Assembly (NCBI GenBank): GCA_034401795.1
Contig: CM067363.1
Location: 24,331,929 to 24,395,928 of the forward strand
Direction of reading: 5' to 3'
Length of the DNA: 64,000 bases
Source: Chaetoderma sp. LZ-2023a
Lineage: Eukaryota; Mollusca; Caudofoveata; Chaetodermatida; Chaetodermatidae
How positions within the stretch are numbered: position 1 is the stretch's first letter; each line of letters opens with the position of its first letter. A program made the position numbers and the translations under genes. The notes below the pieces were generated by a model. The model was not told where the DNA came from, ran no database searches, and saw nothing but the letters and a program-made list of their open reading frames with translations. Below, piece by piece: positions 341 to 63,792 of this stretch.

Positions 341-545
341 CAAATTTATTTATCTGGTAACCCTCAGGGCATAACATCTTATATAATGATAACCTACATT
401 GATGATTAGATGAATCGATAATTTTCTAAACGCAACTTCTATGTTTTATCAACATGACCTGAATTTAAACAAAAAGATAGCGACGTGCCGGGTAGCAATT
501 TTATTGAATTGATCTAATGTATTTATTGCGTGCCTGGCTTGTCAC
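341..545 (+). repeat. Block G copy 1
   Basis: Short dispersed segment recognised by the order TATTTATCTGGTA, a CTTATATAATGAT step, GAATCGATAATTTTCTAAA and a GAACAAA..GATA stretch. Nine copies are seen, starting near 341, 5185, 16425, 18370, 25800, 45340, 45960, 48700 and 49180. No ORF is conserved between copies, and no terminal repeats were found. Confidence 0.6.
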
Positions 546-3136: not shown

Positions 3137-3547
3137 GAACCTTGCCACATTTAACTATGCCCGTCAATCTCTGTCTATGCTCCACCCACACCACGTCTAT
3201 GTTGGGATCGATCGATCTCTGAACTCCCTGACCATTAATTTCCAGAAAACTGTACATGTAAGCTGTCGAATATTTTGAAACTATATTGACTGGGCGCTGT
3301 CGCTGACTATGGCACCAACAGCGTCCCGTCAAATTAGTTTCAAAATATTCAACAGCGTGCTTATTAAATAGTAGATACATATAATTCATATAGCGTGTTG
3401 GGCTATTACGAGTTCAAGACGGGCTAAATAGAATCATTTATGACGTACTGATTATGACGGCATCGGTCATGTCGCTTAATTGATTATAAACACGCCGCTT
3501 AACTGATTATGACGTCATATGATCGATGGATACACTTGGAAATGTCC
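3137..3547 (+). mobile_element. Family-A hairpin element A1
   Basis: Left end GAACCTTGCC, right end GGAAATGTCC. The left half holds GCTCCACCCACACCACG and TGGGATCGATCGATC. The central hairpin is at 3264-3354, followed by CGTCAT/GACGTCAT octamers. Flanking trinucleotides are AAT on the left but ATT on the right, so a clean target duplication is not shown for this copy. Confidence 0.75.
3264..3354. repeat. Central palindrome of A1
   Basis: About 43-bp arms running from TGTCGAATATTTTGAAA to TTTCAAAATATTCAACA. The arms have a few mismatches near the loop. Confidence 0.8.
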
Positions 3548-4048
3548 ATTACAACGACAGCATTTCGGTTGGGTGTAGTCAACATTCACGTACCATGAAG
3601 ACCAGGGTTGGGTTTTGGACTGTCCACACTAATTTTGAACAGACTTTGTCCAAAACCTGTCTAAAACCTGTCTTAAAGGGTTTAAACCAGTCCAAAACTG
3701 TCCTAAACTGTCCTAAACTAATTTCAGCATATTTGCATATGTAGCGTAGAGTAATTTCAGCGGTGAAAGGGTTAGCTGTCCTTGGATTAGTTAACTATAA
3801 TAGCAATTAAAGGCTCATTCACTTGTATGTGTTACAACATAACATCTACTGAAGTGACTGCTGGTCATGCAGGTTATCTGAACTTAGATCTGATTCCCCA
3901 CACAGAGCCTATTGTTAATACCTCCAGCCATCTTCCACACTCAAAGGCATAGACATCATAGTTGAATAATTACAGCCTGTAGTTAACTCTTTCAATAATA
4001 ATGAATGACCAGAAATGGCAAATTCCTTACAAGTTAACAGATTTTCTT

Positions 4049-4137
4049 TTGAATATTTAGACAGTAATTTGCCTGGAAGCTGTTGCTGCCTGAGGCAGCA
4101 ACAGCTTCTAGTCAAGTTATTTTCTAAATATTCAACA
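4049..4137. repeat. A-type palindrome inside the hAT relic
   Basis: Near-perfect hairpin with the GCTGTTGCTGCC tip and GAATATTT..AAATATTCAACA ends of family A. The rest of family A is not recognisable around it, apart from weak similarity at the right flank. Confidence 0.75.
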
Positions 4138-4146
4138 GTTTTCCTA

Positions 4147-4419
4147 TTATACAATCTGACTGAAAGTAGTTGCTATCTTATTAAAGGATTTTACTGCAGT
4201 TACATGCTCTAAGATGATGGGTTCTGGAATCTGTGTCTCATGCTTCTGATAGTGGGCTTTCATTCTTGCTACTTTATTTACAAGTTTGTAATCACATTCT
4301 GTACACTTAGCAAATGATTTTCCATTACTCTGAACTTCTAAGAAATGCTTCCAAATTGGATCCTTAGGCCTACCATCCCTTAAAATACATCTTTGATCAA
4401 ATATTTCAAATAACATCAA
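4147..4419 (-). pseudogene. BED zinc-finger exon of an hAT transposase
   Basis: A 90-residue ORF carrying a BED-type zinc finger, the DNA-binding domain at the N-terminus of many hAT transposases and of host genes domesticated from them. Visible features are GRPKDPIWKHF near residues 16-26 with the conserved Trp at 23, then C39-x2-C42, and VARMKAH..KH ending in H56 and H60 (a C2H2 ligand set). The ORF lies inside hAT-type termini with an 8-bp target duplication, so it is transposon-derived. The catalytic RNase-H-like core and the hATC dimerisation domain are absent. The methionine at 4419 may be internal to an exon, since no good start context was seen. The frame ends just before the inserted palindrome. 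Confidence 0.8.
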
Positions 4420-5352: not shown

Positions 5353-5356
5353 AATT

Positions 5357-5749
5357 CATCTTTTCAGTTTATCCACCAATCATCTGACGTGATATGACGT
5401 CATAATTAACTGAGTGGCGTGTATGATGGCGTCCTAATCTTTGCGTCATGACTAATTCTAGTCCGTCGTCAACGCTTAATAGTCCGACACATTGTACGAA
5501 TTGTATGTTTTGCTATTTAAAAAAACAGTCTGTCGAATATTTTGAAAGTAATTTGACTGGGCGTTTTTGCTGCCTTAGGCAGCAACAACACTCACTCAAA
5601 TTAACTTCAAAATATGCAACATCTCGCATGTATAGTATTATGGAAACTAATAGGCAGTGAGTTCAGAGATCGTTCGACCTAAACATGGATGTGATGTTGG
5701 TGGAGCTTAGATTTCGATGGGTGAAGAATAGCTAAAAGTGGAATAGTCA
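5357..5749 (-). mobile_element. Family-A hairpin element A2
   Basis: 393 bp in reverse orientation, from CATCTTTTCAG to GGAATAGTCA, flanked by ATT at 5354-5356 and 5750-5752. Paralogous block-G copies near 517-523 and 18.53 kb have a single ATT and no insert, so this is a filled site. The central palindrome is at 5531-5621. Confidence 0.85.
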
Positions 5750-12222: not shown

Positions 12223-12239
12223 CCAAATACCAATACATT

Positions 12240-15175
12240 TGATGGCCGAGCCATGCAATCGTGTTTAGGTACATGGCGGTACATTGCTTTGAGCAAAGCT
12301 ATCATTGGAAGCGTTGTTATGCCTCCACTGTGAGGAATTACTGCTGATATTATCCATCAAGTGTTCTGCTCACATCACATCAATCTATAATATGACTCTA
12401 GTGATATTTGTAATAACATAGGTTAGACTGAAAACTGAAAAACAGTTTGTATTTACCTTAGGTTTAATGCGCTTGGTGGGCGGATTGGGGTACATTTATA
12501 ACTATGCCCTCCCCCCCCCCCCGCCCCCCCCCCCCCCCCAACACCCCACCGCGACACATCGACATGCACATTTAAAACCCGAATGCGCATAATCTAAATT
12601 CCCAGGTCAGGTCAAATTAAGTTCAAAATATTCAAAATAATATTCATTAAATTCTAAACTCATCAATGTTCTCCTACACTTAGCCTATTTTCGTCATGTG
12701 ATCTTCTATGTTCATGGTGGGGCTACGCTATTCTGATTGTGGCGTCAGCTTACGTATGGCGAATTTGATTATGATATGTACGGGAGTGACCAGGTAGGGC
12801 CTTCACTTACGATAACAAACGCGTTGCATTATGCTACTGCCCGTAATTAGTGACAGTATTTTCTGGCCCATATGCGGTCCATGTTAGGTATGTTTCCCGG
12901 CTTTTTAACTGTTTGCTGGATGTCTGCAGATTATATATTTGAGGGGATTTAACTCTGGATAAGTTGAATATTTTTTAAAACATTTTGAGTGAAAGTTGTT
13001 GTTGACTACTCCATCAACAACTTTCAGTCAAATTGTGTTCACATCATTTAGCATGTTCAGCGGTATTGCCCATTGACATTAGTGTATGGCGGTTTACGGT
13101 GGTTAAACAGGTAATATGAAATAAACGTTTTAATCTCTGAGATACCGGTATACCAATGTGTGAATATACGTGCGTGTATGTGCTTATATCTAAGTCGATT
13201 GAATATACTTGATTTAATCATACGGACATATTTTGCTGCAACTTCAAGTCACATTATTTTGGAAATATTCAAGACAATATTTAATGAGGCGTAGAAATTG
13301 TTTTCAAACTGTAAGACTCGTTAACGGATGATTAGGCAGGTTTTTAACCAGTTTCCTAATGGAAAATCCACTTTTAGCTATGCCACACCCATCTCCAGCT
13401 AAGCTCCGCCCATATTGTGTGCATGTAAGGACTGATTTATAGATTTATCGACACTGACCTCAGAATTACCAGAATCAAACGTCCATGGTAACTATAGAGC
13501 ATACCAGAGTCATGTCAGAGCATTTCTGTCAATTATGATTTTGACATTAGCATGCACGTGATGTAATTGATTATGCCGCCAGATACGTGATCATCCAGTG
13601 TACCCTGCCCTGTACTGCAGACAGGCAACCATTAGCAGCACCAACTGAATACAATTCAGCACGCGAGCATGTTACAATTTCACTACGCTAAGCTTATTTA
13701 CAGGAAGAAAAATTACACACGTTTCACGTCAGCAGATATAATTGGGAATATTCTTTACGCTTTTATTACCAATTTGTGAAATACATTGTTCCAGATAATT
13801 GGATATTTCCATTATTCAGGCAACTCGTCCACGACACCATTCTTGGGTTATTGCGAGTGCAAATGGAGTAGATCAATCCACCAATCACAATTGTATTAGC
13901 TGCATGGCAATCAGATGTGGTAATCAAAAGAGGCCTCTAGTCGCACGTTTGTTGAAGAGCTTATGAGGCTGGACACGCATTCTACTCATATTTTAATCGG
14001 TGTTAGCACGTTTAACCATAACTATGACCAATTCCAATGGACCTAGCAGGTTCACCATCCACAATATGACGTCACAAACAACCACGCGACACGTAGTATG
14101 GCGTCATAACCAATTGTCGCATGAATGGCTCGATGTAGTCTGTCTTAAACGTGTAATAGTCTGACACGGTGTACGAATTGTATGTCTTTACTATTAAATA
14201 CACATTTTGCCGAATATTTTGAAACTAATTCAATAACTTACATTTAGAGTTTTCATATATGGAACTGTCCAGCTTTAGCTTTACCCAGGCCATCTCGCTA
14301 AACTCTACCAACACTTCGCCTGTGTTGGGATAGATCGACCCGAGTTCAAGGATTGATCGATCCAAACAGGAATTGTAGGTGGAGCTTAGCAAGAGATAGG
14401 CGTGGCATAGCTAACATTGGAAAGGTCCATTACAAGACAGCTATAAAGGTAAGCTGCTGAATATTACATATGTTGAAACTAAGTTGATGTGTGTGGGGGT
14501 GAGGTGGTGGGCTGCCTAATATAAATATGCATCATGATGTCTATTAAATATTAAATCCGCCAAAAATATGCGATCACGATGCTTTCCAAACAGACTAGTA
14601 CAACTTCCTTGATGGACTTACGCCATTTGATTGTGATGCCATCTAACGAGTGGCACATTTGGGTATGCCGTCAGCTGCTTGAGTGATAGACTGAAGCAGT
14701 CCTCTATGGTAAACAATTCACTATGTAAATAAATTTCATTTATTTATAATTATTTGTATATCACTGTGATATATTCTTAAGGATGTATGAATTATTCTTG
14801 AATTGAGCGATTACCGTCCGCAATAGAGTCAAACACGTCTTAACGTCTTCTGTTCTTCGAGCTGAATGGTCATACAGAAACACAAACACAAGTATAATCC
14901 CACACAATATGCAATGCTGTTTACATTGAACCTAGATTGGCTATGGTAAGAACAGATCCAAGTCCAGTTTGCAATGTATTCAATATCATACATGTATGAA
15001 TTATGTTTTGGAGATATTGTGATTGAAGGGATTGAACAACAATATTCATGTTGCTGTCATAATGGCATTACTATCTACTGCATAGCAATCAAATAGATAT
15101 TCCACAGCATAATGGATAAATGGGCTCACCTAAAGCACGGCCCTTTTGGTAAGCATGGAGATTGCTTGTAATTGC
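12240..15175 (+). repeat. Block D, copy 1
   Basis: Non-coding block of about 2.9 kb found in the same orientation at 42.85-45.55, partly at 47.18-49.05, and at 60.285-63.16 kb. Landmarks in order: GCCTCCACTGTG, a C-rich run (12511-12540), TTACGATA..CATTA..AGTGAC, CTCGTTAACGG, TTCCAGATAATTGGATATTTCCATTA, and AATATAAATATGCAT. It contains degenerate A-like hairpins (12600-12640, 12963-13050) and one family-A element. No ORF is shared between copies. Confidence 0.75.
14039..14428 (-). mobile_element. Family-A element inside block D
   Basis: Ends GGACCTAGCAGG and GGAAAGGTCC. The hairpin is reduced to one arm (14210-14245), with a partly repeated GATCGA segment. D copies at 62082-62431, 44519-44702 and 48.0-48.19 kb carry the same insertion with different internal deletions, so it predates the D duplications. 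Confidence 0.6.
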
Positions 15176-26889: not shown

Positions 26890-26941
<52 letters not shown>

Positions 26942-26970
26942 TTCGTTCAGGCGTGCGTGCGTGCGTGCGT
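26803..26970 (+). repeat. (CGTG)n tetranucleotide array
   Basis: CGTG repeats with TTCG interruptions. Arg/Cys/Val ORFs here are artefacts. Confidence 0.95.
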
Positions 26971-27595: not shown

Positions 27596-27812
27596 AAGCT
27601 ATGTCAGCAATAACAGCCAGTCAAATTGTTTTCAAAATATTCACCGGCATGTGCGTTAAATAGTGGACATCTAATTCGTTCATCAACGGCTAGTTCGTCA
27701 TCAATTGTGTTCCTGACGAACTTATCTACAGCATTCATCACGTCATTGATCATGACGTCGCCTTAGATGTCGCCTAGTTGATTATAACGTCATATGTGTG
27801 CTGAATAAACGG
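27596..27812 (+). mobile_element. Family-A right half
   Basis: Begins in the hairpin tip (CAGCAATAACAGCCAGTC) and runs through the second arm and the CATCACGTCATTGATCATGACGTC cluster. The paralog at 50.65-50.89 kb ends CTGGAAATGTCC. The left half is absent in both copies, so truncation predates the E duplication. Confidence 0.65.
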
Positions 27813-28668
27813 GAAAGATTCATAATTTAATAATGACTATTGCAATGTCTTTCTCATGTAAGCACATTTCTTATTGGAATGTGATGTAAGTCTAAGTAAT
27901 ATTACTAAATGTACTTCATATCTTACAATGAACACGGCCACACAGCCGTACTCGTATGACTAAATGCGTACATGTATGCACACATTTGCATGCCAGCACC
28001 GCAAACATGCACACGGCACACTCAGTTGTCGCTATTACTTTGTGGGAGAGTTTGTCTCAAATAGAAGTTACCATTGGTAAATGTATATGAGACTTTGCGG
28101 GGTACTTCGCGAGACTAGTCTCAAAAAGCTAGGAATAATACCCTTAATATGAATATTGATTTCTCTGTGCGAGGTTCATATCAATTAGGTGCTTGGGTGC
28201 AGACCATAATTTACGTGTGTATTCACTTGGACTATGCATTGACAATGGATGAGACGTCGTATTCACATCACTGAGACTAGTCTCGACTCTAGTGGAACCA
28301 ACTGAACAAGATGGACAGCAGTTCCTGGGGGAAATTTAGACATTAACTTGGCCCACAGAGTATACATGGTATCCGGTTTATTACAACAATATTGAATTAT
28401 CTGGTATGTTTATATTCAAATAGCTAGGAATAATAACCATGATATGACTACAAATTCCCTCTATGCGAGCGTCGTGCCAATTAGCTGCACACATGCACTA
28501 ACCATTATTTACCCATGCATTCATGTGGTATGTGAATTGAGAATGACTTTCTCAGCAGAAGGTTACGCTGGCGGTGTGTTGTGGATGTTGATAACTTTCT
28601 GTTCAAATAGCTAGGAACGATACCCTTGCTATGACTATTAATTCCCTTTATGCAAGGGTCGTGTCAAT

Positions 28669-29038
28669 GTACCTTTCCAATTTTAACTATTCCCCGTCCA
28701 TCTCTAGCTATGCTCAACCTTGGACGTGTTGGGATCGATCCCTAAAAACCCAGACAATCAATTTCCAGAAAACTATACAGAAAAGCTGTTGAATATTTTG
28801 AAACTAATTTGACTAGGTGCTGTTGCTACAGCAACAGCGGCCAGGCAAATAATTTCAAAATATTCAACAGCATGTTTATTAAATAGCAAAGACATACAAT
28901 TTATACAACGTGTCGGACTATTACACGTTTTGGATGAACTATATCTATTCATTCTTGCTGTAAGTGATTATGATGCTATCCTACACGTCACGTAGTTGAT
29001 TATGACGCCATATGATGGATGGATAAACTGGAATGCGT
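28669..29038 (+). mobile_element. Family-A element A5
   Basis: Starts GTACCTTTCC after AAT (28666-28668). Palindrome at 28787-28869 with a short perfect tip (GCTGTTGCTACAGCAACAGC). The right half has a CACGTCACGTAGTTGATTAT stretch and ends near CTGGAATGCG. The paralog at 51794 keeps the left half only. Confidence 0.8.
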
Positions 29039-32590: not shown

Positions 32591-32720
32591 TCCATTTGGA
32601 GGCCATGAGAAGACTATTTTTTGAAAATTTACTACTGGAATGACTGGCGCGGTTATTGAACTAGTCATTCTAGTGGTAAATAATGAAAAATAATAGTATC
32701 CTGGCCTGCAAATGGACATA
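32591..32720. repeat. Family-B hairpin B4
   Basis: Arms TCCATTTGGAGGCCATGAGAA and TCCTGGCCTGCAAATGGACA around a CTGGAATGACTGG...TAGTCATTCTAG stem. It is followed by the GATCACTACATAGGCTG word that extends the arm in other copies. Confidence 0.75.
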
Positions 32721-32729
32721 CCGCAAGAT

Positions 32730-33500
32730 CACTACATAGGCTGTTTTTGGTCGGCTACATCGTGAAATGTTTAACGAATGACAAGCGGTTTATAGTAAGC
32801 ATGTTTTGGGGCCAGAAGATTAATGGTCAGAAGATCCGACTAAAGACTTCAACGTTAACGCCCAAACGATATTTACTTTAAACTACTTGTCATAGCCAAG
32901 CATTCTGCGAGGAGCAGAAAGATGTTCGCTGTCAGTAGGTCAGACTGTATTCGGATTTTGATAATGATCACTGCGTTATGAAGAGCGACGTAATGCATAT
33001 CGATCTAGTGCATTGCAACTTGTTGTCTTGGCAAATATTCTGACTGAATTTCAGCGAAACCAATATTGGAGTGCACACTACTCTCTCGCTGGATGAATAA
33101 ATAGAGATTAGTCATTTAGCTGAATCAAGCGCAGATATCAATGCCATAAACGATCAAATTAACAAGAGGTTAATATTTGAGGAGTTTTCTAGCAGAGGTG
33201 GGATCATGTGTTAGCTATATTTTAAGTGGCAATTAATCAACTCTTATGATTTCCCGTCTTAAAGAACCACCGCATTATGATCTCAAAGATAGGTGTGTGG
33301 ACAGACAGTAAACCCATCATGTCTTCTTCATGTTTGATCTAGCGTTATTGTAATCAAAATATTTGATTCACATTAATCTTTTTATAATAATGACTTGATA
33401 GTTTTGTAATAAACTAACCCATGAGACACAGAAGTTATTTATCAACTTCGTCTTGCATATATCAACGATAACAATTGTATTCACAGAAATTAGAGCCATC
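32730..33500. other. No recognisable feature
   Basis: AT-rich, not duplicated in the window, without coding signal. Confidence 0.4.
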
Positions 33501-40650: not shown

Positions 40651-40730
40651 TGCTTCCCATTGAATATTCCACAAGGCTACCGATTAGTGATATTTCTGTT
40701 TGCTGGAGTTTCCTGAGAAGAGCCAGATAC

Positions 40731-41176
40731 TTGACCAGGTTTAGCTATGCCCCACTCATCTGTATCTAAGCTCCACCATACCTCACTCGTGTTGGGATAA
40801 ATTGACCTCTTGCCGCCCTGACTATACATTTCTAGAAAACTATACAGGTAAGCTGGTGACTATTTTGAAACAAATTTAACTAGGCGCAGTTGCTGCCTAT
40901 GGTCATGGCGATGGGCTAACAATGTAACGGCCCATGCCCATGTCCTATGACAGCTACAGCTCCCAGTCACATTCGTTTCAAAATATTCAACAACACGATT
41001 ATTAAATAGTAAACGCATACAATCCGTACGCCAACGCTTAGCTCATCACAAATTATACGTTTGTGACGAAATTAGCTACGTCATTCATGACGTGATTGAT
41101 TATAAGGTCATCCTACATGTCACGTAGTTGATTATGACGTCATATGATGGATGGATAAGCTGGAAAGTTAAAGTAT
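40731..41176 (+). mobile_element. Family-A element A6
   Basis: Left half from TTGACCAGGTTTAGC. The hairpin (40854-40992) has an enlarged tip (CTGCCTATGGTCATGGCGAT). The right half has three TGACGTCA-like words and ends near GCTGGAAAGTT. Termini are too decayed to call a target duplication. Confidence 0.65.
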
Positions 41177-42077: not shown

Positions 42078-42446
42078 GAGAAAATTGAAATTTACTTGAA
42101 TAAATTCGATAGTTAAACTGTTAATACGAGAGAAAAATGTAAGTACCACCCTCGGAGCGTTCATAGCCTTGACAAATGCGGCGGGCAGGAGATTACATAC
42201 CGATAGTCGTCAGCCAACAATTATTTATTATCCTGGATGTCACAATTCGGTAGGTGGTGTCTTGCAGAATTTTATTGGTGCGAGCAAAAATCAATACTTT
42301 GTCGCTTATCCCCGCAACATCATCTATCCATATCAAAGGAAATACATGTACGAGCATGTTTTCCAGCCGTCTTATTTAGTTGATGACCAATTGTGCATCT
42401 GCATTTATAACCACTACTTCTCTGTCTCTCCACATGCCAGTTAATT

Positions 42447-42842
42447 CGCCTTTCCAGAGTACCCACCCATCATATGACGGCATAATGAACTGCGTGATGT
42501 GTACAATGACATCATAATGAATGACGTCATGAATGACGTCGATAAGTACGTCACGAACGCATATTTGAAGGTTGTCTATGCGGTGTTGTACAAATTGATT
42601 GCTTTTACAATTTAATAAATATTATGTTGACTATTTTGAAACTAATTTGACTGGGCGCGTTGCGGCCATATGCAGCAACAGCACCCAGTCAAATTAGTTA
42701 CAGAATATTCAACAGCTTCCCTGTATAGTTTTCAGGAAATTGATAGCTAGGGCATTTAGGGGATCGATCAATCCCAACACGACGAGGTGTGGGTGGCGCT
42801 TAGCTAAGTGATAGGCGGAGCATAGATAACATGGAAAGGTCC
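42447..42842 (-). mobile_element. Family-A element A7 (396 bp, filled site)
   Basis: Reverse orientation, CGCCTTTCCAG to GGAAAGGTCC, flanked by ATT at 42444-42446 and 42843-42845. The unit I paralog (about 12230-12262: ACATTTGATGGCCGAGCC) has one ATT and no insert. Palindrome at 42625-42714. The distal end carries TGACATCA, TGACGTCA and GACGTCGA words. Its length equals that of A10 exactly. Confidence 0.9.
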
Positions 42843-42849
42843 ATTGTAT

Positions 42850-45560
42850 GACCGAGTCATGCAGTCATGTTTAGTTACATGCCGGTAAATTGCTTCGGTA
42901 AGCCTATCATCGGACGTGTGAGTATGCCTCCACTGTGAGATCTTACTGCTGATATTATCCACCACGTGTTCTGCTCTGATGCACTGCCAGTTTCTTGAAG
43001 AGGGCGGGGTGGGTGGGGACACATTTTAGATATGCAACTCCGCACCCCCACCCCACCCTCACCACACACAGCCCCCACCCCCGCCACACATCGACATGAA
43101 ACTTTAAAACCTGAATTTGCAGAATCTAAATTTACAGGTCGGGTCAAATTAAGTTAAAAATATTTTTAAAAAATATTTATTTAATTTTAAACTCATCAAT
43201 GGCATACAATTCGCCTACTTTCGTCATGTGGTTTTCCATGTTCATGGTGGGACTAGGTTATTCTGATTGTGACTCCATCTTACGTATGCCGTATTTGGAT
43301 TATGGCAGATACCCGGGTGATCAGGTAGGGCCCCTCACTTACGATACAAAATGTGTTGCATTAAGCCACAGCCCGTCATTAGTGACCATATTTTTTTACC
43401 CATTTGCTGTCCGTGTTAATTATGTTTCCCGGCGTGTTAACTGTCTGCTGGATGTCTGCAGATTACATTTTTGAAGGGATTTAACTCTGGATATGTTGAA
43501 TAGATTGAGAATATTTTGAGTGAAAGGTGTTGGTGACTAAAGCTTTAACAGCGGTCAGTCAAATTGTTTTCAAATTATCAAGCATGTCCAGAGGTATTGA
43601 CCATTGGCATTATTGTTTGGTACTTTACGGCAGTGAAACTGGTAATACGAAATTAGCCTTTTAATCTCTGAGATACGGTATATCAATATGTGAAGACGCG
43701 TGCATATTTGTGCTTATGTCGTATGCTTATGATTGAATCTAATTGATTTAATGGTATTGAAATATTTTGCAACACATTCAGTTCAAATTATTTTGGAAAT
43801 ACTCAAGAACATATTTATTGAGGCTTAGAAACTGTTTTCAATCTGTCAGACTCGTTAATGGGTAGTACGCAGGTTTTGAAACTCGTTTCCTAATGGAAAA
43901 CCGACGTTAAGCCCATACGTAGAACGTGTAAGGGTCAATTTATAGATTCGTCGACTTTGACTCCTGAATTATCAGAATCCCAATTTAATGGTAACTATAA
44001 ATCATAACAGAATCGTGACAGAGCATGTCTGTCAATTGTGAGTGTGGCCTCACCCTAGCCGTGGCGTACATGATTACACCGCTATATACTTGACTGGCAG
44101 ATCGGAATCATCCATTTTACTCTGCCCTATACTCCAGCCAGGCAACCATTAGCTGCACTAACTGAACTATAATCAACATGCGAGCATGTTGCAATTTCAC
44201 TACGTTATGTGTATTTACCGGGACAAAAATTACACATGTGTCTGTTCAGCAGATATAATTGGCAATATTGTTGACGCCTTTATTACCAATTTGTGTTGAG
44301 CTATTGCGAGTGCACAGGCATTAGATCAATCAATCAATCACTCACAATGTTATTAGTTGTATGGCAATTAGATGGCATAATCAAAACACGCCCTTGGTTG
44401 CACTTGTATTGAAGAGAGTTGAAGACAGCGAAAGAAACAGGGCATGCAATTAACGCATATTTGACTTGGTTTTGGCACTTTTAACCTTGACATCGTGCAT
44501 TTCCTGTGCATTTCCAGTGGAACTTTCTGGTTATACACATATGTTGACAGGGTGTTGTTAAAAAATAGCCGACAGTTTACCTGTCAAGCTTTCGGGAGAT
44601 TGATGCTCAGAGAGTCCAAGTATCGATCAATCACAACACAAGCGGCGAGTTGGTGAAGATTATCTAGACATGGGCGGGGAATAGCTAAAACTGTACAGGT
44701 CCATTGCATGAACACTCTAAAGGTAGGCTCATATATTTTTTTTAACTAATTGGACTGAGGTGAGTTTGGTGGCGTGGTGTACTTCCTAATATAAATATGT
44801 ATTATGCTCTCTATTAAATATTAAATTCACCAAAAACATGCACTCGACACACTTTCCTGACCTAATATATTCCTATTGCCATGATGGCCCTACGCCATTT
44901 AATTGTGACGTCATCTAACAAGTGGAACATTTGGGTATGATTTCAAGTACTTGAGTGACAGACCGAAGTCGTCCATCATGGAAAACAAATCATATTTGTT
45001 TATGATTATGTGTAGATTAGTGTGACATATACTTAATTGTGTATGAATTATTCTTGATTTGAGTGATTTCCGTTCACAATAGAGTCAAACATGGCTTAGC
45101 TTCTTCGAGTTGAATGGTCACATAGGAAAACAAACATAAACAACCACACTCAATGTGTGTAATTGATACATCAAGTAGTATGTTGAGCGCTTTGAAATGC
45201 TCTTAACGCAATATGCGTTTAAGTCAAGTACCAAACAGCGAATGCACATTGAATTTATATTTTAGAACAAGAACACTCATTCTAAGAAATGCCTATACTG
45301 CATAGACTATGCACAGTGTGTTTTGCTACGCTGCGCACATTTATTTATCTCTCAGAGCAGTGTATACCTCAGGGGATCGTTATCAGGGGATCGTTTCTTA
45401 TATAATGATAATCTAGCTTGGTATTTGTACGAATCGATAATTTTCTAAATCTTACTACAGCGTTCTGCTAATATTACATTAATGTGAATAGATAAAACCA
45501 GTTTGGCTGACAATTTGTTGATTTGATCCACGGTATTATTTGTGTTCTTGAATAGAGTGA
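42850..45560 (+). repeat. Block D, copy 2
   Basis: Same landmark order as 12.24-15.17 kb, with C-rich runs at 43043-43085. The embedded family-A copy (44519-44702) has lost its distal part and hairpin. Confidence 0.75.
45340..45550 (+). repeat. Block G copy 6
   Basis: Carries an internal short duplication of the CAGGGGATCGT word, expanded further at 48720-48770. Confidence 0.6.
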
Positions 45561-45959: not shown

Positions 45960-46115
45960 ACAAATCTATTTATCTGATATCACCCAGGGGAGTGCATCTT
46001 ATATTATGATCGTCTAGCGTATGTGTGGGATATAGATTATTTATTTTCTAAATGTCACTACAACGCTCTGCCAACTTAACATTATTTTGAACAAATGAGA
46101 TCAGTTTGTCAGCCG
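45960..46115 (+). repeat. Block G copy 7
   Basis: Second G copy in the 3.3-kb unit, leading into E. A degenerate A-like hairpin (45700-45772) separates it from copy 6. Confidence 0.6.
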
Positions 46116-46599
46116 TTTAAATGATCATGATGGAGCGAGATGCGCCCTTATACATTGCAATATCAACATACATGCGACGCAATTGTGTATGCCTGTATAT
46201 ACATGACTGGCAGAGCAGATCCATCGATAATCCCATAATGCGCATACAGGTTTCACGGCCAGTGCCATTATGTACGTCTGCGTTGCTGAGAGATATTCAT
46301 GCGATGCCGATACAAGATAATTGCCCGTTAATAGATGTGTCCACCATTACCATATTACAAATATCTAGGGTGTGCTGGGCTGCGTTTATTCTTGTAGATG
46401 TCATGGCTTTCAACGAGAATGGATGCAATTGCCCTGGTATAGATAGAGATCCTGTAAATGTGTGTTTCATAGTATTGTTTTATTTGTGATGTCTCTAATT
46501 ATACAATATATTTACCCTTCCCTTGTGTCAAAATGAGAACAGCTATCTAGAAATTCCATATTCCTACCATAGCTTGCTTGCCGGAGAGTGAGAGCGATA

Positions 46600-46780
46600 G
46601 AGGGGTGAGGGAGGGAGGGAGGGAGGGAGGGAGGTGGAGGGAGGGAGGGAGGGAGGGATGGAGGGAGGGAGGGAGGGAGGGAGGGAGGGAGGGAGGGAGG
46701 GAGTCAGGGAGAGAGAGAGAGTGTGTGTGTGGGAGAGAGAGGGAGGTTTGGACGATGGGAGAGAGAGAGATAGAGAGAAG

Positions 46781-46811
<31 letters not shown>

Positions 46812-46815
46812 CGGA
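46600..46815 (+). repeat. (GGGA)n/(GA)n microsatellite
   Basis: GGGA array to about 46703, then GA with a short GT run. The position equals the GA arrays at 26434 and 49796. Confidence 0.95.
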
Positions 46816-48699
46816 TGTGCGAGCGGTTGCCTGAGGCCATTGCCATTGCTGTAAATTCTTTTAGATCTGTGAATGAAATCGCGTTCATATTTTCTGACGA
46901 AAAACAATGATTTAACATTTTGCAGCTGGTGATACGTTTTCGTCAGACATTTACGTCAAACCTTGATATTCGAATTCTTTTGCAAGCTGTCAAGTTTGAC
47001 TGCTTTACATGCATGTTCACTGATGATCGGCCCCTGCTATTGTCACAGGGTCTGAGATGTATCTGTCTGTGGGTGTTTTTTTCCGATATAATAGCATCTG
47101 CAACGTACTCCTGTTATTCTCAGGCTACCGTTTCCAGATTTTCGTTGGTTAGATCCTGCCGAGTATTTGTTTTAATATGTAAGACTCGTTAATGGGTATT
47201 AGGCAGGTTTTTAAACAAGTTTCCTAATGGAAAATCCACCTTTAGGTATGCCCAACCCATCTTTAGCTAAGCTCCGCCCATGTGTTGAACGTGTAAGGGT
47301 CAATGTATAGATTCCTCGACTTAGACTCATGAATTATCAGAATCCCAATTTCAAGGTAACATTAAAGCATAACAGATTCATGATAGAGCATGTCTCTCAA
47401 GTGTGATTGTGGCCTCACCCTAGCCATGGCGTAAATCATTACGGCGCCATATACTTGATTGGCAGATCGGAATCGTCCATTTTACTCTGCCCTATACTCC
47501 AGACAGGCAACCATTAGCGGCACTAACTGACCTATAATCAACATGCGAGCATGTTGCAATTTCACTACGTTATGTGTATTTACCGGGAGAAAAATTACAC
47601 GTGTGTCAGTTCAGCAGATATAATTGGGAATATTGTTGACGCCTTTATTACCAATTTGTGAAATACATTATTCCAGATAATTGGATATTTCCATTATTCA
47701 GACATCAGCCGACAAGGATTAATTCATTTGTCATCTCATGTACTTAAAAAATCGGCGACGACATCATTGTTGAGCTATTGCGAGTGCACATGTATTCGAT
47801 CAATCAATCAATCACAATGTTATTAGCTGTATGGCAATTAGATGGCATAATCAAAATACGCCCTTAGTTGCACGTTTATTGAAGAGAGTTGAAGACAGTG
47901 TATGAAACAGGGCATGCATTTTACGCATATTTGACTTGGTCTTGGCACTTTGAACTGTGACATCGTGCATTTCCAGTGCATTTCCAGTGTAACTTTATGG
48001 TTTATCTATCCATCATATGACGTTATAAACATATGTTGACTGGGTGTTGTTAAAAAATAGCCAACAGTTTACCTGTCAAGATTTCGGGAGATTGATGTTC
48101 AGGGAGTCCAAGTATTGATCAATCACAACACAAGCGGCGAGTTGGTGAAGCTTAGCTAGACATGGGCGGGGAATAGCTAAAACTGTACAGGTCCATTGCA
48201 GGAACACTCTTCTTGACCGAATATATTCCTATTTCCAAGATGGCCCTACGCCATTTAATTGTGACGCCATCTAACAAGTGGAACATGTGGGTATGACGTC
48301 AATTACTTGAGTAACAGACCGAAGTCGTCCCTTATGGAAAACAAATCACTATTTAAAAATTTTAAATTATTTGTAGATCAGTGTGACATACACTTAATGG
48401 TGTATGAATAATTATTGAATTGAGTGATTTCCGTTCGCAATAGAGTCAAACATGACTTAGCTTCTTCGAGCGGAATGGTCACATAGGAAAAAAATATAAA
48501 CAACCACACGCAATGTGAGTAATTGATACATCAAGTAGTATATTGAGCGCTTTGTAACGCTCTTAACACAATAGGCGTTTAAGTCGAGTACCAAACAGCG
48601 AATGCACATTGAATTTATATTTTAGAACAAGAACACTCATTCTAAGAAATGCCTATACTGCATAGACTATGCACAATATGTTTTGCCACGCTGCATACA

Positions 48700-48850: not shown

Positions 48851-49795
48851 TTTGTGTTCTTGAATAGAGTGATCTATTTCTACACACGCCCCGCCCATTT
48901 CTAGCTAAGCTCCGTCCACTTTATAAGTGTGGTGGAATGAATGTATGTAATGTTAATGTCGAATTCCCAGAATCACAAGTGCAAGGTAATTATAAATGTA
49001 GGCCCATAAGTTATTGGATATTTTAAAACTAATTTGCAGCAAAAGTGCCCAGTAAAATTAGTTTCAAAATCTGTAACACATGGTTTAAAGAAACAGAATG
49101 CACATTGAATTGGTATCTAAGAAAAAGGAAACTCATTCAATGAAATGAATATATTGCATAGAATATACGCGCTCCACAAATCTATTTATCTGATATCACT
49201 CAAGGGAGTGCATCTTATAGTATGATGGTCTAGCGTAATGCGTGGGGTATAAAGTATTTATTTTCTAAATGTCACTACAACGTTCTGCCAACTTAACATT
49301 ATTTTGAACACATAAGATCAGTTTGGCAGAGGTGTAAATGCTCATGTCGGAGCGAGATGCGCCACTATGCATTGCGATGTCAACATACATGCGAGGTAAT
49401 TGTGTATGACAGTATATACATGACTGATAGAGCGGAGCCATCGATTGTCCCATTATGCGCATACGGCTTTCACGGCCAGTGCCATTATGTACGTATGTGT
49501 TGCTGAGAGATATTCTCGCCATGCCGATAGACGATAATTGCCCGTTAATAGATGTGTCCACCATTACCATATTACCAATATCTAGGGTGTGCTGGGCTGC
49601 GTTTTATTATTGGAGATCTCATGGCTTTTAATGAGAATGGAGGAAATTGCCATGCGTAAAGATAGAACTCCTTTAAATGTGTGTTTCATAGTATTGTTTT
49701 ATTTGTGATGTCTCTAATTGTACAATATATTTCCTTCCCATGTGTCAAAATCTATCTAGAAATACCATATGCCTACCATAGCTTGATTGCCGGAG

Positions 49796-49857
<62 letters not shown>

Positions 49858-49977
49858 CGAGAGCGAGAGCGAGAGCGAGAGGGAGGGAGAGAGCGGGAGG
49901 GAGGGAGGGATAGAGAGAGAGAGAGAGAGAGAGAGGAGCGAGATAGAGCGTGCCGGAGAGCGACAGAGAGAGAGAGG

Positions 49978-50035
<58 letters not shown>

Positions 50036-50061
50036 AGCGAGAGAGCTAGAAGGTGGGAGTC

Positions 50062-50126
<65 letters not shown>

Positions 50127-50186
50127 GAGAGAGAGAGAGAGTGAGTGAGAGAGAGCGGGTGAGGGAGGGAGGGAAGGAGGGAGGGG

Positions 50187-50242
<56 letters not shown>

Positions 50243-50310
50243 TGTGTGTGTGAGAGAGAGAGAGGGGGTTTGGACGGCGGGGGGTGTGGGGGTGGGGGGG
50301 GGGGGGGTGA
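49796..50310 (+). repeat. (GA)n microsatellite complex
   Basis: Interrupted GA/GGGA array of about 0.5 kb ending in a G-rich run (50270-50310). Within it a CCGGAGAGCGA..GAG block recurs at 49789 and 49952, showing internal duplication. Confidence 0.95.
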
Positions 50311-51793
50311 GGAGATGTGCGAGAGATTATCAACCCACTTCAGAAACATGCACTTCCATCACAGACATGTCTGCTTCTGGCAAGTCACGCTTTGTTATGG
50401 TTATTGTTTTTGTCACCATGAACATAGGACCCGAAACGATCATGTTGAAATTGTCAGTGTACACATAGCGAAAGTCGATCTAATGAATGTCAAAATTGAA
50501 ATACAAAATGGGTTTTCATGGAAATAGTTGTACAAATATATCACAGCTGCACAAATATATCACAAATGAGAACACTAAGGCTAGAACTAATGTTCACTCT
50601 CGCTACCTAGATTACACATCCACACTTTGACGTTTTAACTAAACACCAAAAAACGGGTAAGATTTGGCAGCAATAGCAGCCAGCCAAATTGGTTTCAAAA
50701 TATTTAACAGCAAGTTTATTAAATAGTAAAGACAGCTAATTCGTTCAACAACGTTTAGTCGGAGGTCAAGTATGTGTTGCTGACGAACATATCTACGGCA
50801 CTCATCACGTCATTGCCTATTACGTCGCCCTAAACGCCACCTACTTGATTATGACATCATATGCGTGCTGGATAAACTGGAAATGTCCATAATGAAATAA
50901 TGCCTATTACAATGCCTTTCTCGTATAAGCAAACTTGATATTGGAATGTGATTTATGTCTAAGTAATATTACTATTTTTACTTCATATGCTACAATGAAC
51001 ACGGTCACGCAGGCAGATAGGCACACCCATTCACTCGCAGGGCAGAATGCTTGCATGGATGCACACATTTGCGTGGCTCCACCACACACATACACAGGCA
51101 CAACCACGTATGATTACTACTTCGATTGAACACGATAGAGGGCAGGTCCTGAGGGGAATTCAACGAGAAATATGACCTGCAGATTATACATATTATCCAG
51201 TGTATTAGCACAATGGCGAATTATCTGGCAATTTTACCCTCAAATAGATAGGAATAATGCCCTTGATATGACTGTGGATTCCCGCTGTGCGAAGGTCATG
51301 CCAATTAGGTGCTCGGGTGCAGGACCATTATTTTACTCATGATGATTTTGCATTGGCAATGGATGAGATTTCGTGTGCACACCATTGAGACTAGTCACTA
51401 TCTCGTTATAACGACTCTATTGGAGTCAATTGAATACACCAGAAGGCAGTTCCTGATGGGAGCTCAGACAATAACAAACAGAGTATACATAGTATCTAGC
51501 TTATTACCGCAATATTGAATTAGCTGGTAATTGTCTGCTCAAATAGCTAGGTACAATAACCTTGATATGAATATTAATTGCACCAATGCGAGGGGCGTAC
51601 CAAATAAGTGCACGTGTGCAGTAACCGTTATTTACACATGTATGCGCGTGGCCTCTGCATTGACAATGTAGAAATCTCAGTAGAACGTTACGCCGGCGGA
51701 GTGGTGTGGATTTGGTAATTTTCTATTCACATAGCTAGGCATAATACCCTTGATATGACTATTTAATTCCCGGTATGCAAGGATCGGGCTAAT

Positions 51794-51961
51794 GCAATTT
51801 CCAGTTTTAGATTGTCCCCGCCCATCTCTATTTAGGCTCCACCCACACCTCGATAATGTTGGGATCGATCGATCCATTAAAACCCAGGAAATCAATTTCC
51901 AGTAAAACTGTACTGAAAAGTTGTTGAATATTTTGAAACTAATTTGAATGGGCGCTGTTGC

Positions 51962-51962
<1 letters not shown>
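51794..51962 (+). mobile_element. Family-A left half cut at the hairpin tip
   Basis: Paralog of A5: AAT (51791-51793), then GCAATTTCC through the first arm to GGGCGCTGTTGCC. Everything distal, present at 28.83-29.4 kb, is replaced by a CGTG array. Confidence 0.75.
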
Positions 51963-52180
<218 letters not shown>

Positions 52181-57418: not shown

Positions 57419-57609
57419 AGGTATATTATTTAATAAACAAATAATTGTAAACTATTCCCTGCTGGAAGAAAGCGTCCCCATTCAAATTCGTTTCAAAATA
57501 TTAAACATCTGCATAGGTATCTTGAAATTTAAATTCTGGAAATCCAGATTTCAAGATTTAATTCGATTCTAACACACACACAGTTTGGTGGAGGTTAGTT
57601 AGAAATGGG

Positions 57610-59715
57610 CAGTGCGCAGTTCTCCACTTCTTGGAAAATCGCCAATGTAACCCCTATATTCAAGAAAGGAGACAAGAGCTTATGTTCAAATCATCGACCA
57701 ATATCACTGTTGAGTTGTCGTAGTAAAGCTATGGAGAGAACCGTTTTTAAACATATCTATAACTATATTAGACACGATATCACTCTATATCAGTCTGGCG
57801 TTCTTCCATCACATTCTACAGTAAATCAACTGCTTGATATCTACACTGATATTACTCAAGCCCTTGATGATCAAAAGGAAATAATCTTTCTATTCTTCGA
57901 TATATCTAAAGCCTTTGATCGAGTATGGCGTCGCGACCTCCTACAGAAACTTAGGAATTTTGGCATCTGTGGAAATCTACTTACATGGTTCGAAAATTAT
58001 CTTGGAAACCGATACCAGCGAGTAGTTATACACGTCAATGAGTCCACCCTACTTCGTTTACATGCGGGTGTGCCACAAGGCTCTGTGCTTGGCCCTTTGT
58101 TATTCTTAGTTTTTATAATGACATGCCCAGCGATATAATTCACAATATTAGACTTTTTGCTGATGACACGTGCCTATATGTAATGTCAAATGATCTAAAA
58201 GAACACACTGCCACACTCGATTACGATCTACTGACCACGACGCATTTGGAAAACATGTGGCTCGTCGAGTTCAATGCCTCGAAAACTACATCTCTATTTT
58301 TTCTCTGCGCAACGAGCCCACATCCCTTTCAATCAACTTCAAAGATTCTGAAATTCCACCGTCAACTTATCATAAGCACCTCGGCATTACCTTTAACAAC
58401 AAAGGGAATTGGCTTAACCATGTGAGTAATCTCATAGCAAACGCTCAACACAAACTCTCCTTACTTAAAGGGCTAAACATATTCTAGACCGTAAATGTCT
58501 CGAGATCATGTACAACACATTTATTAGACCATCTTTAGAATATGCAGATGTTGTGTGGGATAATATTCCACAATATCTTGTAATTCGATTAGAGGATATC
58601 GAAAAAGATGGTCTCAGGGCGGTATGTGGAATGACACGTCGTGCGAGCACTGAAGACCTGTACGTAGAAACAGGCACCGAAACCTTGTCAAGTGGACGTG
58701 AATTTCATAGATTATCTAGGCTATTTAAAATTATTAAAGGGATGACCTGTGAGGTTCTGGTCAACGATCTTCCCACACAATCCGAAGCACGAAATCCTTA
58801 CAATATCCGTCATTCAAATTTCTTCACTCCATTCTGCTGCCATACTGAGCTCTTCTATGGATCCTTTTTCCCAGCAACCGTCCGCACCAGGAATATGCTT
58901 CCTGTGCCGGTGAGAGATTCTGTCACTCTTCTAGAATTTAAAAGCAAACTCAAGGCTATGTCACCCATACGACAACCCCCTGAGTGGTATTACGTAGGCC
59001 TGAGGTTTGCCAACATAATGCTATGCAGGCTCCGAAACAGTTGTAGTTCTTTAAACCGACATCTATTTGACAACTTTCTGTCAGAATCTGCCGGTTGTTC
59101 TTGTGGGCACAATGATGAATCTACAAACCACTACCTCTTACATTGTGTCCTTTTTAACGAGCAAAGAGTCGTTTTTCCAAAATCAGCTTACCTTGAACGA
59201 TATTTCTCTTGCTAATCTTACGGTCCTACCAGCTTCTATACGGGACTTACACTGCCAACTTGGAAATGAACAAACTGATTTGTAATACGGTATGTCAATA
59301 CATAATTAACACCAACCGCTTTCAGTAGTTTCCCGTTCGCGAACTTATAAGTTAAGGGGTAAAAGGACAGCAGCCCCAACACGTACAGATCGTGGCGAAG
59401 GCAGCATCTAGAGCTCACCTCTGCTATTCTTCCATTTGATCTTATTCCTCGCTCTCTCTATCTCTCACCCTCTCTCCCCTCCTCCCACCCTCTCTCTCTC
59501 TCTCTTTCTCGATCTTTCTTCCTACTATCCCCCACCTCACACTCAACATCCACACACTTATGCACACTAATAGACTACAATTAATTACACTAGTATGAGT
59601 TGCCGCCATTTTGTTGTAAAACAGTTTTTGTATAATCTGTAAGTGTATGGGAGACACAGCCATAAGACTAAGTCTTATCGTGCTTCCATCTGAACAAATA
59701 AATCACGTGTAAACC
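57610..59715 (+). mobile_element. 5'-truncated LINE with 7-bp duplication
   Basis: Inserted in block F: AAATGGG at 57603-57609 and again at 59716-59722. The unit III paralog at 36845-36860 reads AGAAATGTGTGAGAAAT without an insert. The left edge starts inside the reverse transcriptase (no endonuclease), as expected from incomplete target-primed reverse transcription. The 3' UTR holds a pyrimidine tract (59450-59515), then CATAAGACTAAGTCTTAT and GAACAAATAAATCAC, with no long poly-A. Confidence 0.9.
57611..59215 (+). pseudogene. LINE reverse transcriptase, frameshifted
   Basis: Reverse transcriptase of a jockey/CR1/L2-type LINE, which copies its own RNA into a nicked chromosome. Visible in order: NVTPIFKKGD and RPISLLS (RT motifs 1-2), FFDISKAFDRVW (first catalytic Asp), WFENYLGNRYQRV, GVPQGSVLGPLLF, then FADDT (catalytic pair), HLGITF, MYNTFIRPSLEYADVVW, and a C-terminal Cys/His cluster (CSCG...TNHYLLHC). 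Reading frame changes near 58115, 58300 and 58485 break the ORF into four pieces. The N-terminal endonuclease is missing. It cannot encode an active protein, but preserved motifs suggest a fairly recent insertion. CR1 versus L2 versus jockey is not settled by eye. Confidence 0.9.
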
Positions 59716-60284: not shown

Positions 60285-63161
60285 CGGTAAATTGCTCCGG
60301 TAAGGCTATCATTGGAAGAGTGATTGTGCCTCCACTGTGGGAACATACTGCTGACATGTGTTCTGCTTACATCACGTCAATCTATAATAAGAATTTACTG
60401 ATATTCGCAACAACATAGGTTAGTTAGACTGACAACTGAAAGGAAAGTTTGTATTTACCTTTGATGCCATGTACTCGGTCGTCCTGATGATGCACTATCA
60501 TTTTGATGAAGAGGGTGAGGTGGGCGGGGGTACATGGCAAGCTATGCCGGCCCCCGCCCCACCCTCCCGCCGCCGCACATCGACATGACACTTTAAAACC
60601 TGAATTTGCAGAATCTAAATTTCCAGGTCAGGTCAAATTAAGTTCAAATCATTCAAAATAATATTCATTAAATTTTAACCTCATCAATGGCATAGACGTC
60701 GCAAAATGTTGTTATGTGTTGTCTATGTTCATGGCGGGGTTACATTATTCTGATTGTGGCGTCACCTTACGCGTGCCGTATTTGGTTATGACAGATACCC
60801 GGATGAGCAGGTAGGGCCCTCACTTACGATACAAAATGTGTTGCATTAAGCCACAGCCCGTCATTAGTGACCATATTTTCTGGCCCATATGCTGTCAATT
60901 GTAATTATGTTTCCCGGCAGCTGGATGTCTGCAGTTTACATTTTTGAAGGGATTTAACTCTGGTTATATGTTGAATAGTTTGACAATATGTTGAGTGAAG
61001 GTTGCTGGTGACTAAACCTTTAACAACGTTCAGTCAAATTGTTTTCAAATTATTAAGCATGTCCTGAGGTGTTGCTCATTGGCGTTATTGGCTGGTGGTT
61101 TACGGAAGTCTAACATGTGATATGAAATGAGATTCGGTATATCAATCTGTGCACGTACATGAATGTGCTTATGTCGAAGCCAGTTGAATCTAATTGATTT
61201 AATCATACTGAAATAATTTGTTGCAACTTCAAATCAAATTATTTTGGAAATATTCAAGAAAATGTTTATGGAGGCTTGTGAACTGTTTTCAATCTGCAAA
61301 CCTCGTTAATGGGAGGTTAGGCAGGTTTTAAACCAGTTTCCTAATTGAAAATCCAATTTTAGCTATACCCCACCCATTTCTGGCTAAGCTCGGGCCCATG
61401 CGCCGGGCATCTAAGGGTCAATTCATAGATTTATCGACTTTGCCTCCTGAATTATCAGAATCCCAATTTCATGGTAAATGTGGAGTATAACAGATTCATG
61501 ACAGAGCATTTCTGCCAATTGTGAATGTGGCCTCGCCATAGCCGTGACGTAAATGCTTATGGCGCCATACCTGCCTGACAGATCGGAATCATCCATTGTA
61601 GTCTGCCTTATACTCCAGACAGGCAACCATTAGCGGCACTAACTGAACTATAATCAACATGGGAGCATGTTACAATGGCACTATGTTAGGTTTATTTAGC
61701 GGGAGAAAAAGTACACATGCCAGTTCAGCAGATATAATTGGGAATCTTTTTGACGCTTTTATTACCAATTTGTGAAATACATTGTTCCAGATAATTGGAT
61801 ATTTCCATTATCCAGACATCAGCCGACAAGGAACTAATTTATTTGTCATCTCGAGTACATAAAGAAAAAATCGTCCAGGACATCATTCTTGAGTTATTGC
61901 GAGTGCAAATGTATTAGATCAATCAAACAATCATAATTTTATTAGATTATCACAACGTCATAATCAAAATACATACCTAGTTGCACTTTTGTTGAAGAGC
62001 GTGTATGAAACAGGACATGCATTTGACGCATATTTCACTCGATTTTAGCACTTTGAACCGTGAAATCGTGCATTTCCAGTTGAACTTTCTGGTTTATCGA
62101 TCCAACATATGACGTCTTAAACCACTATGTGGCGCGTATGATGCCGTCCTAATCAACTCCATCATGGACGACTCGATTTAGTCCGTCTTAAATGCTTAAT
62201 AGTCTGGCAGGTTGTACGAATTAAATGTCTTTACTATTTAATACACATTCTGTCATATATTTTGAAACTAATTTGACTCGGTGTTGTTTAAAAATAGCCA
62301 ACAGCTTACCTGTCTAGCCTTTGGGAGATCGATGCGCAGGGAGTCCAGGTATCTACCAATCCCAACACAAGCGGCGAGTGTGTGGAGCTTAGCTAGAGAT
62401 AGGCGGGGAATAGTTAAAACTGGGCAGGTTCATTACAAGAAAATTCTAAATGCGGGCTTATATTTATTTTTTTAAACTAATTTGACTGAGGTTGGGCGGG
62501 TTGGGTCGCGTACTTCCTAATATAAATATGCATTATGATGTCTATTAAATAGTAAATTCAGCAAAAACAGGCAATCGAGACACTTTCCTGCCAGAATATA
62601 TTCCTCCTTCAATGATGGGCCTACGTCATTTAAGTGTGACGTCATCTAACACGTGACACATTTGGGTATAGTGGCAGGTACTTGAGTGACAGACCGACGT
62701 CGTCCATTATGGAAAACAAATCAGTATTTAAACAAATTATATTTTATTTATAATTATTTGTAGATCATTGTGACAAATACTTAATGATGTATGAATTATT
62801 CTTTAATTGAGCGAGTGCCGTTCACAATAGAGCCACACATGGCTTAACTTCTTCGAGCTGAATGGTCATATAGGAAAACAAACATATACAACATCACAAT
62901 AAGCAATGGCGTGTACAATGAAACTAATGTGGCCATGGTAACTACATCTTCGCATCCAATTTGCAAAGTATTCAATAGTCATACCCTAATGAATTATGTG
63001 TTGGAGATATAGCGGTTGAAGGGAATGAACAAGAATAATTGTGTTGCTGTCAAAATGGCATTCCTAACTACCGCATAGCAAGCAAATGATATTCCGCAAC
63101 ATAATGGAGACATGGGCTCAGATAAGGCACTGCACGTTGGGTAAGCATGCGGAGTACTTGC
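60285..63161 (+). repeat. Block D, copy 4
   Basis: Best match to 12.24-15.17 kb over its whole length, including the last 100 bp (TGCTGTCAAAATGGCATT..GGGCTCA). It contains the ancient family-A insertion at 62082-62431. Confidence 0.75.
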
Positions 63162-63291
63162 AATGGACCTTTCTATTTTTAGCTATGCCCCGCCCATCAC
63201 TACCTAAGCTCCACCCACACCTCGCCGTGTTTGGATTGATCGATCCCCGAATGCCCTAGCTATTAATTTCCTGAAAACTATACAGGCAAGC

Positions 63292-63382
63292 TGTTGAATA
63301 TTTTGTAACTAATTAGACTGGGCGCTGTTGCTGCCATAGGCAGCAACAGCGCCCAGTCAAATTAGTTTCAAAATATTCAACA
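63292..63382. repeat. Central palindrome of A10
   Basis: Arms of about 43 bp (TGTTGAATATTTTG..GGGCGCTGTTGCTGCC and reverse complement) around a CATA loop, with only two arm mismatches seen. RNA or single-stranded DNA from it would form a long hairpin. Confidence 0.95.
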
Positions 63383-63455
63383 TAATATTTATTAAATAGT
63401 AAAAGCAAACAATTTGTACAACAGCCCATAGACCGTCAGCAAATATGCGTTCGTG

Positions 63456-63530
63456 ACGTACTTATCGACGTCATTCATGACGTCATTCATTATGATGTCA
63501 TTGTACACACCACGCAGTTCATTATGACGT
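63456..63530 (+). promoter_or_regulatory. Cluster of CRE-like TGACGTCA words
   Basis: CGACGTCAT, TGACGTCAT, TGATGTCAT and TGACGTAAT within 75 bp. The palindromic octamer TGACGTCA is the known CREB/ATF binding site. Equivalent clusters occur in the distal half of A1, A2, A5, A6 and A7. Whether any factor binds is not shown by sequence alone. Confidence 0.5.
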
Positions 63531-63664
63531 AATATGATGGGGGGGTACTCTGGAAAGGTGAATTACCATAACAACGTGAATGTGTGGTTTAATCCCTCTT
63601 ATGCCAACCTAACCTTTACTGATCAAACTCACCAAAAGGCAGCTTTGCAGTTGTCTTCAGACAT

Positions 63665-63792
63665 GGCTATTTGCAAGCCCTAGAGACGGTTATTTTGAAT
63701 ATTTACCCCTCGAATGACTGGCTCGATAACCGGGCCAGTCATTCTTGGGGTAAATTTTCAAAAGAGCTCTTCTCTTGGCCTGCAGATTGACA
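63665..63792. repeat. Family-B hairpin B6
   Basis: Inner stem CGAATGACTGGCTCGATAAC facing CGGGCCAGTCATTC. Outer arms TATTTGCAAGCCCTAGAGA and TCTCTTGGCCTGCAGATTGA. Confidence 0.75.

Follow-up and report, generated by a model that had tools for sequence, protein, structure and literature searches.

CACTA elements have ends that start with CACT(A/G), and Fold-back elements carry a large inverted repeat that is terminal. Spy elements insert within AAATTT and make no duplication. Closest to the family described here is the ISL2EU group of the PHIS superfamily, for which PMC4482050 gives an AT duplication at an A|AT|T target, ends that usually start with GG, and two encoded proteins, one a YqaJ protein and the other a transposase of the THAP/HTH/DDE kind; PMC9179366 describes the same two-ORF layout. 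For PIF/Harbinger elements, the duplication reported in PMC4482050 is TWA. In the literature searched, whose coverage is partial and allows no claim on all that is in print, no description of the hairpin-cored architecture reported below was found.

Family A in the Window and in the Genome

The locus lies in a 64-kb stretch of DNA (C5:24331929-24395928, hereafter the window) of a genome that was searched over 2.44 Gb. Three repeats of the window, A10, A7 and A2, had been assigned to a single transposon family (here family A) in the earlier note, and blastn bears this out, with identities to A10 of 91% for A7 and about 72% for A2. Many older relatives of A10 were additionally recovered in the window by blastn and by a profile search, among them the near-full copies that close the following list.

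63165..63561, plus strand: A10, full element of 397 bp (the earlier 63165-63560 plus a terminal A)
42446..42842, minus strand: A7, full copy, with its hairpin at 42625-42714
5356..5749, minus strand: A2, older full copy, with its hairpin at 5530-5622
3137..3542, plus strand: near-full older family-A copy
28670..29035, plus strand: near-full older family-A copy
40729..41168, plus strand: near-full older family-A copy with additional sequence at the hairpin apex

The window contains 16 near-full matches to family A, and a further 15 occur within 107.9 kb of sequence flanking family-A copies; the family-A profile matches 19.1% of the window and 9.2% of these flanks, shared cores being counted in. 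No match to Rfam at the gathering threshold was obtained in the window.

The whole-genome search with A10 that had been proposed as a check was run, 40 of 2,758 first-look candidates being scored, and all 40 proved to be full or near-full copies with 96-100% identity. The remaining 42 of the 82 A10 matches are short (50-93 bases), and nearly all of them are the hairpin matching itself in reverse. Exact copies of the family-A 5' end were counted 6,533 times across the genome; family A is very abundant, with at least thousands of copies.

Other repeats were noted in the window. Three paralogous blocks (12300-13700, 43007-44217 and 60307-61698) and three further ones (25803-27900, 45966-47500 and 49182-50967) show about 67-84% identity over aligned pieces within each set. 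A second palindromic repeat, around GACTGGCTCGATAACCGGGCCAGTC, is found at 63696-63781, 11630-11731 and 32619-32751, while positions 57599-59212 hold broken reverse-transcriptase-like reading frames, which we take to be a LINE-like reverse transcriptase.

Insertion Target and Length of the Duplication

Uninserted paralogs of the A10, A7 and A2 sites are present in the window, as had been proposed, and are recognized by matches to the flanks of each copy.

15170..15173, plus strand: empty-site paralog for A10, reading AATT
12236..12239, no strand assigned: empty-site paralog for A7, reading CATT on the plus strand
516..519, no strand assigned: empty-site paralog for A2, reading AATG on the plus strand

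The left flank of A10 matches 14973-15172 at 81.6%, and its right flank matches there by eye only, with no blastn hit; the flanks of A7 match 11928-12111 (85%) and 12236-12371 (82%), and those of A2 match 343-518 (71%) and 516-648 (68%). A10 itself is bounded as follows, under the parse that is favoured below.

63163..63164, plus strand: left copy of the putative AT duplication, the target A being at 63162
63165..63174, plus strand: 5' terminal inverted repeat (family consensus GGACCTTTCC; the A10 copy ends in T)
63552..63561, plus strand: 3' terminal inverted repeat GGAAAGGTGA, reverse complement TCACCTTTCC
63562..63563, plus strand: right copy of the putative AT duplication, the target T being at 63564

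The short terminal inverted repeats already described for the family are real and, with a 397-bp element, 10 bp long, GGACCTTTCC and TCACCTTTCC being identical at 8 of 10 positions. Junctions were read in 40 copies with flanks (L001-L040): AAT immediately precedes the element in 38 of them, the exceptions being L027, whose start has diverged, and L032 (AAA), and AATT immediately follows it in 39, the exception being L013 (AACT). The insertion target is therefore the palindrome AATT, which in turn allows two parses of the same junctions, namely an element of 396 bp with a duplication of 3 bp (AAT), or one of 397 bp that ends in GGTGA and has duplicated 2 bp (AT) at A|AT|T.

Genome-wide copies lacking a consistent AAT/ATT duplication, which would have spoken against the earlier proposal, were not what was seen, since AAT stands at 97% of the 6,533 5' ends that were counted. 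Among these ends, all preceded by AT, 6,342 have A at position -3 and 191 (2.9%) have another base. In a hand count of the first 100 of these 191 places listed, T was found 53 times, G 28 times and C 19 times, and this spectrum, with T in excess at -3, differs (P=0.005) from that of the A-site changes which the 39 copies closest to A10 display once L027 is dropped (A>T 18, A>G 26, A>C 21).

How many of the non-A flanks arose by later mutation depends on the copies that are used for calibration. A-site divergence is 0.73% in the 39 copies nearest A10, which are the youngest, and an estimate based on this value, with mutation explaining just a quarter of the non-A flanks, was abandoned as too strong because an unselected sample gives 2.0%. 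That sample consists of 20 AAT copies, every fifth of the first 100 places listed. The 3' end can be read in 13 of the 20, and in these 13 private changes affect 54/2,668 A/T sites. Set against the 2.9% of non-A flanks, 2.0% means that mutation can probably account for about two thirds of them, and lowers the odds for a 2-bp duplication; together with the differing base spectrum, it also means that about one third appear to be genuine off-target insertions. The first 30 of the 191 non-A loci listed were examined, readable canonical 3' ends being called by an automated rule, and AATT follows the element in all 19 copies readable at that end, with GAT, TAT or CAT on the left. In the unselected AAT sample, right junctions read AATT in 11 of 13 copies, and GAAA and AAAT in one each.

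If one third of the non-A flanks are true off-target insertions, our arithmetic gives a 3-bp duplication a probability of about 0.001 of not showing in any of the 19 copies. If all of them had mutated, this 19/19 result would say nothing on duplication length; the 30 non-A loci are indeed more diverged, with 118/3,884 (3.0%) private A/T changes, one 17% outlier included, as is expected if many have mutated. A MITE of another group, making a genuine 3-bp AAT duplication with a strong preference for AATT, would account for the AAT of 97% of counted 5' ends and the AATT of nearly all 3' ends, and about two thirds of its exceptions can be later mutation; the A retained at the 3' end by 19 of 19 readable non-A copies, the excess of T at -3 beyond mutation and the TWA duplicated by PIF/Harbinger (PMC4482050) nevertheless make it quite unlikely. 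Short of proof, the reading favoured is the one in which 2 bp (AT) were duplicated at A|AT|T. It also gives ends of equal length. The AAT and AATT flanks behind the earlier 3-bp reading thus stand, its length having probably been misread; likewise, A10 and A7 are real elements of the same family, and their length would be 397 bp, with a terminal A, rather than 396 bp.

Probable Assignment to the ISL2EU Group

The favoured AT duplication, the A|AT|T target and the GG start together constitute the published ISL2EU signature (PMC4482050), so that a known group probably fits family A and the idea that none does is probably wrong. The AATT target is seen at 39 of 40 right junctions and in the 97.1% of 5' ends with A at -3, and genes for a THAP-DDE transposase and for YqaJ are present in the genome that hosts family A. 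Unlike ISL2EU, family A has no coding capacity, its 5' end starting with GG is paired with a 3' end starting with TC, and a strong palindrome occupies its centre. In keeping with the earlier reading of the ends, neither PIF/Harbinger nor CACTA matches AAT/AATT flanks with ends GGACC and TCACC. PIF/Harbinger MITEs resemble family A in their short ends, small size and wider superfamily, but family A duplicates AT, or AAT at most, rather than TWA; the CACTA start is lacking at both ends; and the Spy pattern differs from the AT present on both sides of family-A elements and from the single AT of the A10 empty site. Family A is thus probably a non-autonomous MITE of the ISL2EU type, with a core inherited from a TTAA-type MITE (see below).

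Genes of the ISL2EU type were looked for across the genome. At least 67 matches to YqaJ and at least 150 to DDE_Tnp_4 were obtained (150 of 2,519 DDE_Tnp_4 candidates being scored), and when both lists are read together, 16 YqaJ/DDE_Tnp_4 pairs emerge whose members lie on opposite strands at a distance of 1.2-3.4 kb; most of these pairs are convergent, and two are divergent. A single frame at L105 (C5) encodes THAP (1.9e-6), HTH_Tnp_4 (6.9e-15) and DDE_Tnp_4 (1.6e-49); L101 (C12) encodes HTH_Tnp_4 and DDE_Tnp_4, its scanned ORF being without THAP, and L043 (C1) encodes YqaJ (2.3e-19). One ISL2EU-type element is present in two copies, in C12, where it measures 6.6 kb, and in C1, with pieces 94-98% identical (L042/L043 with L101-L104). 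It has convergent YqaJ and DDE genes and ends AGACTCCTCT with AT outside; the wider contexts of the two copies are not clean A|AT|T, and these ends differ from those of family A. No clear end pair was assigned to a second ISL2EU-type element (C5), and among the ISL2EU-type elements examined no autonomous element with the family-A ends GGACCTTTCC was found. YqaJ family VI loci, considered as an element end, turned out to hold an internal half element instead. A family-A copy with a mostly deleted hairpin was also noticed near a YqaJ gene, in a tandem-repeat array common to L044, L045 and L046, the repeat unit of which contains AATT.

As to the enzyme that moves family A, we infer from its ends and target that a THAP/HTH/DDE transposase produced by a full-length ISL2EU element would recognize the short ends in trans, excise the element and insert it at A|AT|T, thereby duplicating AT.

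The Central Hairpin

The longest inverted repeat of A10 is central and not terminal, as first noted, which sets family A apart from Fold-back elements despite their common possession of a large inverted repeat.

63292..63382, plus strand: central hairpin of A10, with 44-nt arms and a 3-nt spacer

Its arms, 63292-63335 and 63339-63382, are 95% complementary. When the hairpin was searched for with a profile, the 64-kb window gave 37 matches, the 107.8 kb next to family-A copies gave 48 (9, 10 and 29 by group) and reversed sequence gave none, which suggests roughly a million copies genome-wide, or about one per 2 kb, the flanks being a non-random sample. An exact 31-base pattern of the hairpin arm was absent from viral contigs. 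Two half elements that stop at the apex of the hairpin or close to it (51798-52160 and 22650-22994) run into or close to long microsatellites, (TGCG)n and GA/TA tracts, a pattern that would suit an apex prone to breakage or slippage.

The same palindrome occurs in several other arm contexts (B, C and E), with arms that differ from those of family A and ends that are ill-defined. Iterated profiles for other hairpin families were discarded because family-A hairpins captured them, and arm-only profiles for B and C drifted; B, C and E are thus described only as other arm contexts.

Hairpins were aligned using 39 representatives of 55 clusters from 128 full matches. In consensus they form a perfect palindrome of 45 bp, the loop being 3 nt long, and 82.3% of cells are paired in the 39 representatives versus 77.7 +/- 0.5 in shuffles, a percentage that is biased upward by the omission, after folding energies had been seen, of 16 clusters, mainly short or damaged. 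Cells changed on both sides number 86, whereas shuffles give 36.5 +/- 5.1 and slid controls 33-45, relatedness inflating counts of this kind; one pair, for instance, is CG in 16 representatives, AU in 8 and UA in 4. The hairpin arms change in concert between families. Within family A, 39 young copies, selected for their similarity to A10 and not independent of one another, show 39 one-sided hairpin changes and no two-sided one. Non-CpG changes are rarer in their hairpin (21/3,392) than in the rest of the element (153/10,839; odds ratio 0.44, P=1e-4), and this holds for A/T sites alone (11/2,145 versus 73/6,784, P=0.02).

These data bear on the possibility that the hairpin is a shared, selected module, whose folded DNA or RNA would aid amplification or the evasion of silencing and which would move among families by recombination. 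The recurrence of the palindrome in several arm contexts, the excess of two-sided changes over both kinds of control and the lower mutation of the hairpin in young copies (also at A/T sites) speak for it. We nonetheless regard it as rather unlikely, since the one-sided changes of the young copies indicate that single copies decay, and template-switch correction of imperfect palindromes or arm-templated repair could yield both patterns; nor are the copies independent. Similarly unlikely is a perfect palindrome of ~100 bp that would serve DNA mini-transposons as a transferable core, passed between AATT and TTAA families and kept palindromic in every lineage by concerted change of its arms.

Half elements that end at or near the hairpin apex (51798-51966, 6529-6709 and 50663-50883) would be in line with a hairpin formed by an internal deletion that joined two subterminal inverted repeats of a longer element. 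The palindrome, however, occurs alone in repeats with other arms, and the halves at 27599 and 50663 represent one duplicated event, so that this origin is disfavoured and appears very improbable. The latter two had been considered as independent longer relatives, and were set aside as one duplicated block.

Origin of the Core

The middle of the element, from about position 84 to 258, is similar to an older, TTAA-ended repeat that occurs on its own and is also represented in the window.

63249..63422, plus strand: core of A10, similar to the stand-alone repeat with TTAA ends (limits approximate, similarity weak on the right)
4002..4151, plus strand: stand-alone core repeat without family-A arms, with TTAA just upstream and its hairpin at 4046-4144

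The layout of the stand-alone repeat is TTAACCCTTTCA..CTGAATTC...ATACAGGTAAGCTG, followed by the hairpin and a tail ending near TGAAAGGGTTAA. It is a putative piggyBac-like or other TTAA-target MITE, having TTAA beside its CCCTTTCA ends, whereas family A itself inserts at AATT. Partial matches of the family-A profile cluster at a 5' boundary near position 75-89, with 22 starts, several of which represent one locus, and correspond to the stand-alone repeats. Among eleven comparisons of arms, the left inner arm aligns with the stand-alone repeat over 43 bp with a score of 35, versus 16.1 +/- 2.9 in single-base shuffles, none of 1000 of which did as well; the right arm is weakly similar, 53 of 1000 shuffles being as good. 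Of 23 stand-alone hits, 12 have TTAA at a distance of 16-19 bp beyond the start of the core, and these reduce to 7 of 17 independent copies (independence being judged by hand from the kinship of loci). None of 82 family-A copies, which are mostly near-identical, has TTAA at this distance. TTAA is readable at both ends in just a few stand-alone copies. The stand-alone copy L063, taken for an inverted duplication that included its flanks, was wrongly interpreted, one end having been read twice.

Judging from these alignments, the core appears older than the family-A element. We infer an origin by nesting, in which the core, about 175 bp with its hairpin, would descend from an older TTAA-ended MITE lodged inside an ISL2EU-ended element; this chimera would then have been amplified to at least thousands of copies, with the hairpin as cargo. 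The weak similarity on the right side of the core and the lack of TTAA 16-19 bp beyond it in the 82 family-A copies speak against this history. Similarity that runs 43 bp past the hairpin on the left could also reflect common descent without nesting, all hairpin families deriving from one palindromic ancestor and family A gaining new ends later, but the outer arms do not align and the targets differ (AATT versus TTAA), and we consider such a history to have a small chance of being correct.

Implications

Read as proposed here, what had looked like a puzzling duplication of 3 bp becomes easier to understand, and a family of great abundance finds a place close to a transposon group on which little has been written. 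The palindromic core, for its part, is traceable through several families of mini-transposons, which makes selection on the hairpin testable against template-switch repair.
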